From NCBI GenBank assembly GCA_019313915.1, contig JAFDAJ010000005.1:1-54839 (forward strand): a DNA stretch of 54,839 nucleotides, given 5' to 3'. The stretch comes from Deltaproteobacteria bacterium (lineage in GTDB: Bacteria > Myxococcota_A > Polyangia > Polyangiales > Houyiibacteriaceae). A program made the translations under genes and the position numbers. Shown piece by piece: positions 8,605 through 51,924 of this stretch; position 1 is the first letter of the stretch, and every line of letters starts with the position of its first letter. A model generated the notes under the pieces. It worked only from the letters and a program-made list of their open reading frames with translations, was not told where the DNA came from and searched no databases.

Positions 8605-8711
8605 GTGGGAGTGCCTACCACGCAAGGTGTGGCGCGCCACCCCGGTCCTCGGCTAAGCTGGAAAACGCTGCGTGACAAGCGCTGTTAGAAGCGCTACAGA
8701 CTGCAGCTCGC

Positions 8712-8786
8712 GGCGCCGTAGCCAAGTGGTAAGGCAGAGGTTTGCAAAACCTCCATTCGCTGGTTCGATCCCAGTCGGCGCCTCCA
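8712..8786 (+). tRNA. tRNA-Cys (anticodon GCA)
   Basis: A complete cloverleaf can be folded by eye. Acceptor arms GGCGCCG (8712-8718) and CGGCGCC (8776-8782) pair fully. The D-arm is GCC-AAGTGGTAA-GGC. The anticodon arm is GAGGT-TTGCAAA-ACCTC with GCA at the centre. The T-arm is GCTGG-TTCGATC-CCAGT. The CCA end is encoded (8784-8786). It lies 24 bases before the membrane sensor gene on the same strand. Confidence 0.95.
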
Positions 8787-8809: not shown

Positions 8810-10453
8810 ATGTTTCCAATCGCTGACCTCTTCAGGCTCCGGCCACGAAACGTCCGCACTCGGCTCCTGAGGGACCTCACTCTGGTCATTTTCGTCACGT
8901 CGGGCGCCATCGTAGCCCTGGCTGTTTCGAGCGCGTCCAAGGCGGAGCGGAGCACGGCCCGTGCGCACATCGAGCGGGCTTCGACCCAGGCGCAACAGGA
9001 GTTCCGAACGCGCATGGAACCGGTCGACCGACGGCTCCGGCTGACCTGGGAGTGGGGAAAGGCGGGACTCCTCGACTCCAATGACCGGCCCACTACGCTC
9101 GCGAAGCTCGCTCCCGTGCTCGAGCCACTGCCGATGGTGACGGCGTTGATCATCGCGGACTCGAAAGGCCACGAGTTTCTCGTCTCGCGAGACCGCAACG
9201 CGGATGGCGAACCGGAAGGCTGGGTAACGCGAACCAGTGGTCTGCACGAATCCAAGGGGCAACTGCTTCGGGAACGGTGGAGTGAGCAGCGCCAACTGGT
9301 CGAGAAGTTCTGGATCGACCTCCCCGGTTACGTGCCGACCGAGCGACCGTGGTTCGTGGGCGCGGTGAGCAGCGAATCCGACGATGAAATCTATCGCACC
9401 GAGCCGTACCAGTTCTTCGAACGGAAACAGCTCGGAGTGACGGAGTCGATGCGCTGGACTCCCGTGGATGGAAACACACACGTGGTCGCGTTCGACTTGC
9501 TACTCGGCGATGTGTTCGCGGTCGTAAGTGAAATCGAGGTCAGCGACGGAGGCGAAACTTTCCTATGCAAGTCGAACGGAGATGTCTTCGTGCCCTACCG
9601 CGCGCGGCGGCCCGGAGAGCCTGCCCGCGAACCGCAGCACGTCTTCGTCGACCCTGCAAAGACCGGCAGCACGGTGATCGAGAGAGCGGTCGCGGCTTGG
9701 CTGGAAGCCGGGGGCAAAACCGACGAGCCCGTGCGATTCCGCGCGGGCGACGTCTCGGGATGGGCCGGCTTTCGTTTGGTCAATCCGCTCTCAGGCATCT
9801 GGATGGGCGTTGCGGTGCCCGAGCCGGAGATCTTTGGCGCCACGATCGATTGGACACCGCAGCTCATCGTGATCATTGCCTTGGTCTTGTTGCTCGGCCT
9901 GCTTCCCGCGGTGACCATCGTCCGCAAGTACAGCCACCAACTCAAAGACATCCCCAAGCAGCTCATCGGTCCGAAGACCTTCGAGCGCGACGTGCAAGAA
10001 CTGATCGCGCGCGGCGAAGGCCCCACTCTGGAGTTCAAGTCCACCGTTCGAATGAACCTCAAGACGGAGAAGTTTGGAAAAGAGATCGAGCTGGCATGGC
10101 TCAAGAGCGCGACCGCGTTCATGAACTCCGATGGGGGCACACTCCTCATCGGCGTGAGCGACGACGGCGAAGTGCTCGGCGTCGAGCACGACAAGTTCGA
10201 TAACGAGGACAAGTGCCGACTGCACCTGAAGAACCTCGTCAACCAACACATCGGCGCTGAGTTCTCCCGGCTCATCCGCTTCGTGGTCCAACCGATCGAC
10301 GCCAAGACAGTCGTCGCAGTCCAATGCGAGCGCTCCGCCAAACCAGTCTTCCTCAAGGGAAAGAACAGGGAGTCCTTCTACATCCGAAGCGGCCCCTCCA
10401 GCGTAGAGCTCTCCCCCCGCGAGGTCCTAGAATACGTAAACCGTCGAACGTAA
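8810..10453 (+). CDS. Membrane sensor with periplasmic Cache-like domain and cytoplasmic Schlafen AlbA_2 domain
   Basis: The protein has 547 residues from the ATG at 8810; the open frame upstream runs through tRNA-Cys and is not coding. It has a membrane helix at about residues 21-40, a long extracytoplasmic region of dCache-like layout (41-348), and a second helix at about 351-371. The cytoplasmic part ends in an AlbA_2 (Schlafen-type) domain from about residue 400: GEGPTLEFKST, then FMNSDGGTLLIGVSDDG. E403, E408 and an aspartate near 451 lie where RNase Schlafens keep their E-x4-E...D site. The architecture suggests a one-component signal-to-nucleic-acid switch. The function is unproven. 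Confidence 0.75.
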   Translation: MFPIADLFRLRPRNVRTRLLRDLTLVIFVTSGAIVALAVSSASKAERSTARAHIERASTQAQQEFRTRMEPVDRRLRLTWEWGKAGLLDSNDRPTTLAKLAPVLEPLPMVTALIIADSKGHEFLVSRDRNADGEPEGWVTRTSGLHESKGQLLRERWSEQRQLVEKFWIDLPGYVPTERPWFVGAVSSESDDEIYRTEPYQFFERKQLGVTESMRWTPVDGNTHVVAFDLLLGDVFAVVSEIEVSDGGETFLCKSNGDVFVPYRARRPGEPAREPQHVFVDPAKTGSTVIERAVAAWLEAGGKTDEPVRFRAGDVSGWAGFRLVNPLSGIWMGVAVPEPEIFGATIDWTPQLIVIIALVLLLGLLPAVTIVRKYSHQLKDIPKQLIGPKTFERDVQELIARGEGPTLEFKSTVRMNLKTEKFGKEIELAWLKSATAFMNSDGGTLLIGVSDDGEVLGVEHDKFDNEDKCRLHLKNLVNQHIGAEFSRLIRFVVQPIDAKTVVAVQCERSAKPVFLKGKNRESFYIRSGPSSVELSPREVLEYVNRRT

Positions 10454-10473
10454 AAAGGGGACAGTCCCTTTTT
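10452..10473. repeat. Perfect A/T-flanked palindrome, REP-like or terminator
   Basis: Five A and four G pair with three C, a wobble T and five T around an ACAG loop, giving a nine-base-pair stem. It starts inside the sensor gene's stop codon. It can work as a rho-independent terminator in either direction. The GGGGACAGTCCC core is also of the short palindrome type that recurs in proteobacterial genomes, and a related element sits at 11640-11656. Confidence 0.6.
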
Positions 10474-10533
10474 GAAAGGGTTAAATCACAGACCTCGGGT
10501 GGCCCATTACTTTATTTAATGTAAAGCAAGCTC

Positions 10534-30100: not shown

Positions 30101-31381
30101 ATGCGCACGGGTCAACAACTCGAAGCGTTTTCCACGATGTTGGGAGTCGTGGCATCCGTCGCCGTGCATCTGGCAGCGCTCGCATACATCGCAACCATCA
30201 GCGCCCAGTTCGACTTCGACTTCGAGCTCACACTACCGGCGGAGGTGGAGTTCGGCCTGACAGGCGAGATGGAAATGGCCGCTGCGCCGGCACCACCGCG
30301 AGCCACAGGCGCAACGGACCCAAGGTGGTCGGGCGAACCCAATCAAGAGGGGGAGCACCCCACCACAGACGCCGGAGTCCCGCTCGACCCTGATACCGAC
30401 GCTGACACCGACACCGACACCGACGCTGACCCTGACACTGAACCCGATCCCCCCCCCGTCGCGGCTCCCACCCTCTCGGGCCCTTCCCGCATCCCCCCGG
30501 GCGCTCAACTGGCCCTCCGCGTCGACATGAAACGGGTGCGCGAATCCGCGCTGGCGCCCGATGTCACCAGCTTCTTGCAGGGGGTTCCCGACTGGCAGCT
30601 CCTGCTCGAGGGATCCGGGATCGATCCTGTGGAGGACCTCGACCGGCTGTTGGTCGCTACGCCCAATTTGCAGCGCTCCAAGCTCGTGCTCGCCGGACGG
30701 CACCGTCGCGATGCGAGCTTTGCGCGCAGGAGCGTCAAGCGCCTGGCGCGCTCACGAGGCAAAGGTGTGCGTTGGCGGCAGCGTTACGGAGTGGCGACTG
30801 CACCGTGGTACAACCTCGACCGAACACCGCGAACGATCGCGCTCCTGAGCGCCCATCATTTCAGCATCATGCGCCGTCAGGATCTCCAACGCATCCTCGC
30901 GATGACGAAGGCGCGCGAGCTTCGAGATGCCAAAAAGGAGGGGCTCGTCGCCGCGCGCGGTCCCGACGCATTGCTCTCAATGGGACCGGAAGAAGCGATT
31001 TCACTCGAGGTCGAGGGCGTGCATCGCTTCATCATCGGGAACATCAAGCACGTACCGGTACGACTGCGTCTAGCCATACGCGAGACCGGTCCGGATGAAG
31101 CGACTGTCAGTGTCCTGGCGACCTACGCCTCGGAAGACGATGCGCGCGGTGCGTCGGTCTATTGGAAGAAAGTCGCTGAGTTCTATTCACAGCAGCTGAT
31201 CATGACGATCGCGGGCTTTGGGAAGACCCTTCGGCGAATGGAGTTCGCGCCCGACGAGGATCGCATCCAAGTGTCCTTCACCCTCAGCGCTGATCAGATT
31301 CGCTTCATTCTCAGCTACGCGGAAGGCCGGCTGCGTGGCGCAGCATCGACGCGACGGCAACCAACAAAAAAGGGGCCCTGA
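30101..31381 (+). CDS. Membrane-anchored hypothetical protein with Asp/Thr repeat linker
   Basis: I do not recognise this 426-residue protein. It has one N-terminal helix (about residues 14-34), then a Pro/Ala region and a linker of DTDADTDTDTDADPDTEPDP, and a globular C-terminal domain (about 130-415) with strands such as LALRVDMKRVRESALAPDV, SKLVLAGRHRRD and TIALLSAHHFSIM. The N-terminal helix plus extended linker is like TonB-type or gliding-envelope proteins. The gene diverges from the L,D-transpeptidase. Its stop codon lies in the loop of a terminator. Confidence 0.55.
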   Translation: MRTGQQLEAFSTMLGVVASVAVHLAALAYIATISAQFDFDFELTLPAEVEFGLTGEMEMAAAPAPPRATGATDPRWSGEPNQEGEHPTTDAGVPLDPDTDADTDTDTDADPDTEPDPPPVAAPTLSGPSRIPPGAQLALRVDMKRVRESALAPDVTSFLQGVPDWQLLLEGSGIDPVEDLDRLLVATPNLQRSKLVLAGRHRRDASFARRSVKRLARSRGKGVRWRQRYGVATAPWYNLDRTPRTIALLSAHHFSIMRRQDLQRILAMTKARELRDAKKEGLVAARGPDALLSMGPEEAISLEVEGVHRFIIGNIKHVPVRLRLAIRETGPDEATVSVLATYASEDDARGASVYWKKVAEFYSQQLIMTIAGFGKTLRRMEFAPDEDRIQVSFTLSADQIRFILSYAEGRLRGAASTRRQPTKKGP

Positions 31382-47505: not shown

Positions 47506-49040
47506 CCTTCGATCTCGGGCCCGCTCTTCAGCCAGTCGCGAAGGGTCGAGCGCGGAATGCCCAGGGCGCGAGCCGCGGCCGACATGTTGCCACCATACTG
47601 CTCGAGCGCCTCTCGAAGGGAATCTGCCGAAGGCCGCTGCGCGTGCGGCTCGCAAATACGCCGGAGCGACCGTTCGACCGCTGCCAGGTCGATCTCCGCT
47701 CCATCGCAATTCACAGCGGCCAGCTCGAGCACGTTTCGAAGCTCGCGGACGTTGCCCGGCCAGCCATACCCGTGGAGACGTTCAAGCGCCTGAGGCGCGA
47801 GGCACCGCTCGCCCACCTCGGGCTGCATTTTGCAAAGGAAGTGCCGCGCTAGGAGCGTGATGTCGTCAGGACGGACACGCAGTGGTGGGACGTCGATCAC
47901 CAAGCGATGAATTCGATAATAGAGGTCGGAGCGGAAGCGGCCCTCGTGCACCATCGTGCGCAAATCTCTGTGCGTCGCGCACACCAGCCGCACATCGACT
48001 CGGCGGGCGGCTTCACTGCCAACACGACGGACCTGCCAAGTCTCGAGCACGCGAAGGAGCCGGGTTTGAAGACCCGGCGGCAGCTCCGCGACTTCATCGA
48101 GAAAGAGGGTCCCACCGTGCGCCTGTTCGAACGCTCCGCGATGCGCTTGAACCGCGCCGGTGAACGCGCCTCGCTCGTGCCCAAACAACTCGCTCTCGAT
48201 GAGCTCACGCGGAAGGCCACCCCCGTTGAGAGGCACGAATGGGCCCTTGCGACGCCGCCCTCGTTCGTGAAGTTCCCGCGCGACGTGCTCCTTGCCGACA
48301 CCTGTCTCGCCTCGAACCAGCACCGGCCAGGGCAGGTCCGCGAAACGATCCACCTCGGCCATGACCGACAACATGGCGCTCGATTCAACGACGACTTCCG
48401 AAGAGGGTGTCCCACCACGACTGACCACCCGGAGCTCGGTTCGGCCAATACGGACCACGGCCCCTGGCCGAAGCTCATGGCGGCGGATGCGAAGGCCGTC
48501 GACCCAGGTGCCGTTGGTGCTGTCGAGATCGCGAATGGACACGCCTCGTGAAGAGGGCTCGATGCGGCAGTGGTACCGACTCACCGCCCGATCGGACAGC
48601 GCGATCGCATTGTCGTCCGCGCCGCCGACCGAAATCGGCGCGTCCCCGACATGAAAGGCACGCGCGCCCAGACCATGACCGCCCACGAGCGAAAGCATGC
48701 GTGGCCCGGCGCAGCGACTGCGCAGAAGCTCGGTGCCGCGGGGCTCGAGCGAGGGGGTCTGTGCCTTGACCCGCACCACCGAAAAGCCCGCCCCCACCGG
48801 AACCCGGGCTCCAACCGGGATGACCGAACGTGCCCCCAGCGCCGGCCCCTTGGCCAAATCGTAGACGTACAACGTGCCCCCATGAGGCTGAAAAAGCAGC
48901 GCTCGCGGGGGCACCGCCGCCGCATGGATGACGATGTCACAGTCGGGATGCGAGCCTACCTCGACCGCGGCAGCTCCCAGAGGAAACGCGCGAACGCGCC
49001 GACCCGCGCGGCACAGACAAAGCGTATCTCCCCATGCCAT
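47502..49040 (-). CDS. Sigma54-dependent activator with two FHA-type domains
   Basis: The 512-residue protein has a first FHA-like region (about 20-95) lacking the S-x-x-H core. A canonical FHA domain follows (about 128-205: ALSDRAVSRYHCRI, DLDSTNGTWVDG), which should bind phospho-Thr. The AAA+ domain has Walker A GETGVGKE (244-251), the sigma54-contact loop GAFTGA (291-296) and TLFLDEVAEL. A Fis-type helix-turn-helix ends it (GGNMSAAARALGIPRSTLRD). I chose the ATG at 49040. It lies head to head with gcvT, and no -24/-12 promoter was found between them. A Ser/Thr kinase such as the one at 38413 may be its partner. Confidence 0.9.
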   Translation of the reverse strand: MAWGDTLCLCRAGRRVRAFPLGAAAVEVGSHPDCDIVIHAAAVPPRALLFQPHGGTLYVYDLAKGPALGARSVIPVGARVPVGAGFSVVRVKAQTPSLEPRGTELLRSRCAGPRMLSLVGGHGLGARAFHVGDAPISVGGADDNAIALSDRAVSRYHCRIEPSSRGVSIRDLDSTNGTWVDGLRIRRHELRPGAVVRIGRTELRVVSRGGTPSSEVVVESSAMLSVMAEVDRFADLPWPVLVRGETGVGKEHVARELHERGRRRKGPFVPLNGGGLPRELIESELFGHERGAFTGAVQAHRGAFEQAHGGTLFLDEVAELPPGLQTRLLRVLETWQVRRVGSEAARRVDVRLVCATHRDLRTMVHEGRFRSDLYYRIHRLVIDVPPLRVRPDDITLLARHFLCKMQPEVGERCLAPQALERLHGYGWPGNVRELRNVLELAAVNCDGAEIDLAAVERSLRRICEPHAQRPSADSLREALEQYGGNMSAAARALGIPRSTLRDWLKSGPEIEG

Positions 49041-49107
49041 AGCGGGGGTATCGACCGGTCCCGCCGTCGGTTGCGTAGACGCCTCCGGTCCGTAAGCTCC
49101 CGGCACC

Positions 49108-50202
49108 GTGTCTGAAACACTTCGTGAAACCTCTCTCACCGACGAGCACCGAGCCCTTGGCGCGCGGCTCGTTCCTTTTGCCGGTTGGCGCATGGCCGTT
49201 CAGTACGAGGGCATCAAGAAAGAACACGAAGCCGTTCGCAAGCGCGTGGGGCTGTTCGACGTTTCGCACATGGGAGAGATTCTCATCGAAGGCCCCCATG
49301 CTGTCGCCGCGGTCGACCGCCTCGTCACGAATGACATGTCGAAGCTCGAAACCGGTAGAGCGCTCTATACGGCATGCTGCAACGAGCAAGGTAATATCCT
49401 CGACGACCTCATCGTCTACCGGTTGGAAGACGAGAAGGTCCTCGTCGTCTGCAATGCATCCAACCGCGACAAGATCGTTGGCCACTTTGCAAACAACCTG
49501 AGCCTCGAAACGCCCTGGAACGACGTGTCGGACGCGTGGGCGCTGCTCGCGCTGCAGGGCCCGAACGCCGTGGCGGTCATGAAAGACTTGGGCGCGGAAC
49601 AAAGCGTTCTCAATCTTCCGTATTTCCACGTCACTCGAACACGCGTCGCCGGCGTGAACCTGTGGGCTGCCCGAACCGGCTACACCGGCGAAGATGGCTT
49701 CGAGCTCTTCTGCTCGAGCGAGGACGCCGTCACTTTGTGGAGGGCGTTGCTCGAAGCCGGCCAGACCCACGGCTTGAAACCCGTCGGCCTCGGCGCCCGC
49801 GACACCCTTCGGCTCGAAGCCCGGCTGATGCTGTACGGCAACGACATCACCGAGGAGACCAACCCGCTCGAGGCAGGCCTGGGCTGGGTGGTGAAGCTCG
49901 ACGCTGGGGACTTCATCGGACGCGACGCGCTCCGGGCGGTGAAAGCGGCGGGGCTCGACCGGAAGCTGGTTGGCTTCGAGATGACCGGACGCGGAATCGC
50001 ACGCCATGGCTACCCGATCGTGGCCGCCGGGGACCCCATCGGAGAGGTCACCAGCGGCTCCCCAGGGCCGACGGTTGGACGGAACATCGGTCTCGGCTAT
50101 GTGCCCCTGGCGCTCGGCAAAGCCGGGACCACTTTGGGCATCGAGATTCGTGGCAAGGTGGTCGACGCCGTGGTAGTGAGGACCCCGTTTTACAAGAGGT
50201 GA
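49108..50202 (+). CDS. gcvT: Glycine cleavage system T protein (aminomethyltransferase)
   Basis: The 364-residue enzyme transfers the methylene group from the aminomethyl-lipoyl H protein to tetrahydrofolate. It has VPFAGWRMAVQYEGIKKEHE, LFDVSHMGEI, the folate-site Asp in LVTNDMSKLE, and GLGARDTLRLEARLMLYGND. It is complete and starts with a GTG. No glycine riboswitch is seen in the 67 bases upstream. It is followed at once by the broken gcvH and then gcvPA. Confidence 0.95.
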   Translation: MSETLRETSLTDEHRALGARLVPFAGWRMAVQYEGIKKEHEAVRKRVGLFDVSHMGEILIEGPHAVAAVDRLVTNDMSKLETGRALYTACCNEQGNILDDLIVYRLEDEKVLVVCNASNRDKIVGHFANNLSLETPWNDVSDAWALLALQGPNAVAVMKDLGAEQSVLNLPYFHVTRTRVAGVNLWAARTGYTGEDGFELFCSSEDAVTLWRALLEAGQTHGLKPVGLGARDTLRLEARLMLYGNDITEETNPLEAGLGWVVKLDAGDFIGRDALRAVKAAGLDRKLVGFEMTGRGIARHGYPIVAAGDPIGEVTSGSPGPTVGRNIGLGYVPLALGKAGTTLGIEIRGKVVDAVVVRTPFYKR

Positions 50203-50562
50203 TGATGGCGACGTACCCAAGGGACCTGCAGTACACGCGAGAGCACGAATGGGCGCGTATCGGCCGTCGAGCAGCTTGGCGACGTGACGTTGGTCGACAT
50301 GCCTGCGCCCGGGGAAGACGTCCAGGCGCACGAGCGCTTTGGCGACATCGAGTCGGTCAAGACCGTGAGCGAGCTGTTTGCGCCGGTGAGCGGAGAGGTC
50401 GTGGACGTCAACGACGACCTCGAGTCGAGCCCGGAGCTCGTGAACGAGGGCCCATACAAAGAGGGCTGGCTGGTCACCATCCGCCCTTCCGACCAAGCAG
50501 AGCTCGATGGACTGATGGACGCGGCCAAGTATGAGGAGTACCTCGGAACGCTCGACGGCTGA
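50202..50562 (+). pseudogene. gcvH: Glycine cleavage H protein, broken by an internal deletion and frameshift
   Basis: The first frame reads MMATYPRDLQYTREHEWARIG and then turns into nonsense. From about 50269 the second frame reads VEQLGDVTLVDMPAPGEDV and continues normally through the lipoyl-lysine motif FGDIESVKTVSELFAPVSGE to the end (LGTLDG). The conserved stretch expected in between (about 13-14 residues, of the type GD-TVGITD-A) is absent. The loss is not a multiple of three. Either the gene is dead, or the deletion is an assembly/sequencing error. A GTG at 50284 could yield only a headless 92-residue fragment. The ATG at 50202 overlaps the gcvT stop. Confidence 0.85.
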
Positions 50563-50577
50563 GCCACCGGTACGCAT

Positions 50578-51924
50578 GTGAGATACCTTCCGCACACCGA
50601 CGAAGAGATTCGAGCCATGCTCGCGCGCGTCGGTGTCGAACGCATCGACGATCTCTTCGAAGCGATCCCCCCCTCGCATCTCCTGGACCAGGCCCTCGAC
50701 CTCGAGCCCGCGCTCGATGAGCCGAGGCTCATGCAGCACCTCACGGCCCTCTCGAATGCGAGCGCCGGCGCGAACATGCTGTCGTTCCTCGGTGGAGGCA
50801 TGTACCGGCACCACGTGCCCCCGGCGGTCGACCAGCTCTTGCTGCGGAGCGAATTCTACACCGCGTACACGCCTTACCAGGCGGAGCTTTCGCAGGGGAC
50901 GCTACAAGCGACCTTCGAGTTTCAGACGATGGTGTGCGAGCTCTTGGGCACGGACGTTGCCAACGCATCGATGTACGACGGCGCGAGTGCGGCGGCGGAA
51001 GCGGTCCTGATGGCACGCCGGATCAAGCGGCGCACCCACGTGGTCATCAGCGACGCGCTTCATCCGGAGTACATCGAGACCATTCGCACCTACGTGCAGG
51101 GGCTCGATACGGAGACCACCATCAGCCTGGCACCCATTGGCGCCGACGGCCAAACCGATTGGGACACCGCCAGGAGCCTCGTCACAGACAAGACCGCGGC
51201 GCTCGTGGTCGGATACCCGAACTTCTTGGGTTGTGTCGAGGACCTCGGCGCGGCCCGCGCCGTCGCGGACACCCGAGGTGCGCTCCTGGTGACTGCAACG
51301 GCCGAGCCCTACGCGGTCTCGGTGCTTCGATCGCCCGGGGCGTGTGGAGCGGACATCTGTGTCGGCGAGGGGCAGGCACTTGCGGTGCCGCCTCAGTACG
51401 GGGGGCCCGGGGTCGGCTTGTTCGGCGCATCGCAGAACCTGGTCCGGCAAATGCCGGGCCGGCTCGTCGGACGCACCGTCGACTCCGAAGGCCAACCTGG
51501 ATACGTCCTCACCTTGTCGACTCGTGAGCAGCACATTCGCCGCGAGAAGGCGACCTCCAACATCTGCACCAACCACGGATTGATCGCGCTCGCCATGGGG
51601 ATGCGAACCGCGATGCTCGGACGCCGAGGCTTTCGGGAGGCCGGGCAACGCTGCCTCAATGCAGCGCATTATCTGCGAGCGGGCATAGCGAAGCTCGAAC
51701 ACTTCGAGGTTCCGTACGCCGCGCCCGTCTTCAACGAGCTGGTCGCCCGCAGCGGCGGCCCCACCGCAAGCGAGGTCGTCGGCCGCTTGCTCGACGACGA
51801 CATCATCGCTGGGGTCGACCTTGGCCGCTTCCGGGACGATTGGCGCCAAGACCTCTTGATCGCCACCACCGAGCTCCACACCCGAGACGATCTCGACCGG
51901 CTGCTCCAAGCTCTCGCAAGCTAG
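50578..51924 (+). CDS. gcvPA: Glycine dehydrogenase (decarboxylating) subunit 1
   Basis: The 448-residue protein is the N-terminal half of the two-subunit glycine decarboxylase: YLPHTDEEIRAML at the start, FLGGGMYRHHVPP, YTPYQAELSQGTLQ, and STREQHIRREKATSNICTNH. The Lys for PLP is on subunit 2, which is not downstream. It begins with a GTG (50578), or the ATG at 50576 in another frame is not usable. It follows the broken gcvH after 15 bases. Confidence 0.93.
   Translation: MRYLPHTDEEIRAMLARVGVERIDDLFEAIPPSHLLDQALDLEPALDEPRLMQHLTALSNASAGANMLSFLGGGMYRHHVPPAVDQLLLRSEFYTAYTPYQAELSQGTLQATFEFQTMVCELLGTDVANASMYDGASAAAEAVLMARRIKRRTHVVISDALHPEYIETIRTYVQGLDTETTISLAPIGADGQTDWDTARSLVTDKTAALVVGYPNFLGCVEDLGAARAVADTRGALLVTATAEPYAVSVLRSPGACGADICVGEGQALAVPPQYGGPGVGLFGASQNLVRQMPGRLVGRTVDSEGQPGYVLTLSTREQHIRREKATSNICTNHGLIALAMGMRTAMLGRRGFREAGQRCLNAAHYLRAGIAKLEHFEVPYAAPVFNELVARSGGPTASEVVGRLLDDDIIAGVDLGRFRDDWRQDLLIATTELHTRDDLDRLLQALAS

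Follow-up and report, generated by a model that had tools for sequence, protein, structure and literature searches.

A frame-breaking gap in gcvH of a Myxococcota-type draft genome is probably a local assembly fault

Has the organism behind the window (the whole stretch of 54,839 nucleotides analysed here) lost its glycine cleavage system, or does the draft merely misrepresent gcvH? In this stretch, gcvH at 50205-50562, a member of a gcvT-gcvH-gcvPA operon, is 35 bases short after base 50262, and the reading frame is consequently shifted. The features of the locus are collected in Table 1.

Table 1 Features of the gcvT-gcvH-gcvPA locus in the window
Feature	Coordinates	Strand	Description
gcvT (aminomethyltransferase, T-protein)	49108..50202	+	intact, 364 aa; PF01571 E 1.8e-95, PF08669 E 7.1e-27
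gcvH 5' remnant	50205..50261	+	19 codons, MATYPRDLQYTREHEWARI; ATG also at 50202
gcvH deletion junction	50262..50263	+	35 bases of relatives absent; from alignment with same-genus loci
gcvH 3' remnant	50263..50562	+	99 codons and stop, other frame; PF01597 from profile position 26, E 2.4e-31
gcvPA (glycine dehydrogenase subunit 1)	50578..51924	+	intact, 448 aa; PF02347 E 6.7e-117, positions 1-429/429

An earlier note on this DNA had described an internal deletion with a frameshift in gcvH, and the alignment bore this out. The Ile and Ala codons at the site, separated by 36 bases in the 6 close relatives measured, have a single G (50262) between them in the window, and the two halves of the gene lie in different frames. 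Bases are indeed gone where the note had placed a gap of about 40 bases, but the size of the gap in the alignment with the 6 close relatives is exactly 35. The absent bases correspond in relatives to about 12 residues, which read EDDVIRVGITAY or a close variant of it. The codons of the 3' remnant, AVEQLGDVTLVDM...LGTLDG, occupy 50263-50559 and are followed by the stop codon at 50560-50562; the lipoyl-Lys codon is at 50359-50361, within GDIESVKTVSE, which contains the ESVK motif. When the shifted frame was read from 50202, a stop was reached at 50532-50534 after 110 residues. The gcvH of the window does not form a single open frame over PF01597 positions 1-119; the match starts at position 26 and the frame changes at 50262/50263. 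The contig runs cleanly across the junction, with no Ns. By inspection, its ends share 0 bases in the simplest reading, and a CGCGTA pair lies near both ends in some relatives, from which the observed junction needs a further 2-base change.

Both halves were otherwise conserved, as the note had also held. All 19 residues of the 5' remnant were identical in 4 of the 6 close relatives measured, and 18 of the 19 in the other 2, while mostly 92-97 of the 99 residues of the 3' remnant were identical in comparison with the closest relatives. The 22 base differences between the 3' part and that of the relative G008 fall 2, 2, and 18 at codon positions 1, 2, and 3, respectively. This pattern indicates that normal selection acted on both halves until a very short time ago, or that it still does. 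The remnants are nearly identical to those of relatives, with base changes mostly at third positions; the broken gene has therefore not had time to decay. This absence of decay fits a fresh mutation and an assembly fault equally well.

The other genes of the system were present. As in same-genus loci, gcvT lies upstream and gcvPA downstream, and gcvPB is unlinked and intact in the window's own genome (G000:C129, 512-aa open frame), which ruled out its loss as a sign of pathway decay. No Rfam matches were obtained in window positions 48800-50600. In a profile search, gcvH was intact from PF01597 position 1-2 in 18 of the 18 other same-genus genomes and likewise in 18 further genomes of the family and order (36/36 in total); since the full region is present in all of these genomes, the lack of the region is not chance variation. 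The window's own genome is a Myxococcota-type draft of 448 contigs and 4.41 Mb with a completeness of 100%. A second gcvH, the check that had been suggested, was sought in its 448 contigs with PF01597, and the search returned one gcvH, matching only from profile position 26. Furthermore, DNA and pattern searches of the same contigs found neither the missing 35-base piece elsewhere nor a contig with an intact gcvH fragment. The earlier statement that the system is inactive unless another gcvH exists therefore follows if the sequence is real, as no second gcvH was found.

Subsequently, the base rate of frame breaks in this assembly was examined against G014, a relative assembled as a single contig, of which about 2 Mb was used; from the own genome, the window and a further 18 stretches of 20 kb each were compared. 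The longest non-overlapping frames of G014 served as queries and reached about 186 kb of sequence, 33 kb of it in the window and about 153 kb on other contigs. In those 153 kb, two clear frame breaks were read at the DNA level, one in rpsA (ribosomal protein S1) and the other in an NrfD-like membrane protein gene; both names were assigned by reading the sequences and not from a family library. The rpsA gene is broken by a 10-bp tandem duplication at about 37,318 of G000:C208 (37300-37330; L157:17300-17332) and carries a premature TGA. The own genome holds no second full copy of rpsA, the next match being 36% identical and located in an 811-aa frame. An 11-bp tandem duplication at about 19,320 of G000:C448 (L152:19316-19325) interrupts the NrfD-like gene; another full copy was absent from the own genome, and the gene forms one frame without an internal stop in 6 other same-genus genomes. 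Both genes were unbroken in several same-genus genomes. Since rpsA is essential in E. coli, its break can hardly be biological, and it is probably an assembly fault that is not in the organism. Local indels thus break further genes in this assembly, one of them essential as judged from E. coli. On the appearance of the alignments, the signals at L156 and L158 were put down to intergenic sequence, shadow frames, or poorly conserved ends of genes.

In the window, about 42 kb lay under at least two relative-derived hits, and no real gene break besides gcvH was seen there. The candidates at about 19270, 28975, 30194, 40060, 52400, and 52942 were judged to be antisense or shadow frames, ends of genes, or faults in a single relative and were dropped; that at about 8660-8730 was likewise dropped, being an open frame of a relative that crosses a stretch resembling a tRNA, upstream of the aconitase gene. 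The window also holds, at 10452-10484, a palindromic dispersed repeat, AAAAAGGGGACAGTCCCTTTTT, which has about 35 matches in the own genome and many in relatives and looks like a REP-type element. Imperfect 6-base repeats (GACACC/GACGCT) lie in a coding frame at 30390-30441, and similar stretches occur at many sites in relatives.

As a control, loci of other drafts in the genus, 133 kb in all, were put through the same break test. Breaks were found at two places, truB and the gene facing window 30.0-31.4 kb, both in the draft G017. Both amount to a net loss of about 30-40 bases and a changed frame, at messy junctions (L113, about 840-880; L085, about 9173). Frame-breaking faults of this kind are therefore not confined to one draft of the group.

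The earlier note had left three causes side by side: an assembly fault, a fresh mutation, and a phase-type event. We consider a local assembly fault to be the most likely cause, with gcvH probably intact in the organism, because two more conserved single-copy genes, including rpsA, carry frame-breaking duplications of 10-11 bp. However, these other faults of the same assembly are duplications and not deletions, and the clean N-free junction, the 42 kb of the window without another break, and the lack of an intact fragment among the contigs count against a fault. A clean junction inside a 54.8-kb contig with apparently unbroken other genes, together with the lack of both a second gcvH and an intact fragment, instead speaks for a genuine 35-bp deletion that arose very recently in the strain sampled, by which glycine cleavage would be off without having decayed yet, and C1 units would come from serine via GlyA. 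Such a loss also agrees with the fact that several cultured bacteria can do without their glycine cleavage genes. Nevertheless, each of the 36 other genomes searched has an intact gcvH, gcvT, gcvPA, and gcvPB are all intact, and a single gcvH mutation leaves the rpsA and NrfD-like breaks unexplained. The fresh mutation is compatible with the lack of decay and, on the whole, rather unlikely. That the deletion is real and fixed in the species appears quite improbable; one member of a genus otherwise always keeping glycine cleavage would just have lost it here with the rest of the pathway intact.

A clean junction would also result if the deletion occurred in part of the population and the assembler took that path, and strain mixtures are common in metagenome-derived drafts. 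A contig with the intact version was not found, though assemblers often drop the alternative path, and we regard this explanation as very unlikely. The phase-type event fared worst: a phase-type switch or programmed frameshift restoring or controlling GcvH is scarcely credible, and no support for it was found at gcvH. The roughly 12 residues from the lost 35 bases could not be replaced by any frameshift, and neither tandem repeats nor inverted pairs nor matching direct repeats were found bounding the site. Near the junction there are only short chance repeats and 6-bp palindromes, none of which matches it. A hairpin or unusual fold at the site was also rejected, as the DNA of a relative folds no better than its shuffles (z +1.5).

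Taken together, these findings favor an assembly fault, in which the draft contig would have dropped 35 bases of gcvH through a wrong join between read paths or contig pieces. The breaks in gcvH, rpsA, and the NrfD-like gene would then share one technical cause. The organism's own gcvH would be intact, and the H-protein would shuttle the aminomethyl group between the P-, T-, and L-proteins as usual. To call the glycine cleavage system absent from this genome is probably wrong, and a claim of pathway loss from a draft genome needs to be set against the rate at which faults break frames in that assembly.

The gcvH of the window resembles known GcvH (PF01597) in its lipoyl-Lys region, its C-terminal part, and the gene order gcvT-gcvH-gcvPA shared with same-genus loci, but it differs in its broken frame and in the loss of about 12 residues from the N-terminal half. 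Curation of metagenome scaffolds is known to target local assembly errors (PMC6784885). The probable fault described here resembles the kind curated with ra2.py (PMC6784885) in showing several isolated indels per assembly that break the frame of conserved single-copy genes.
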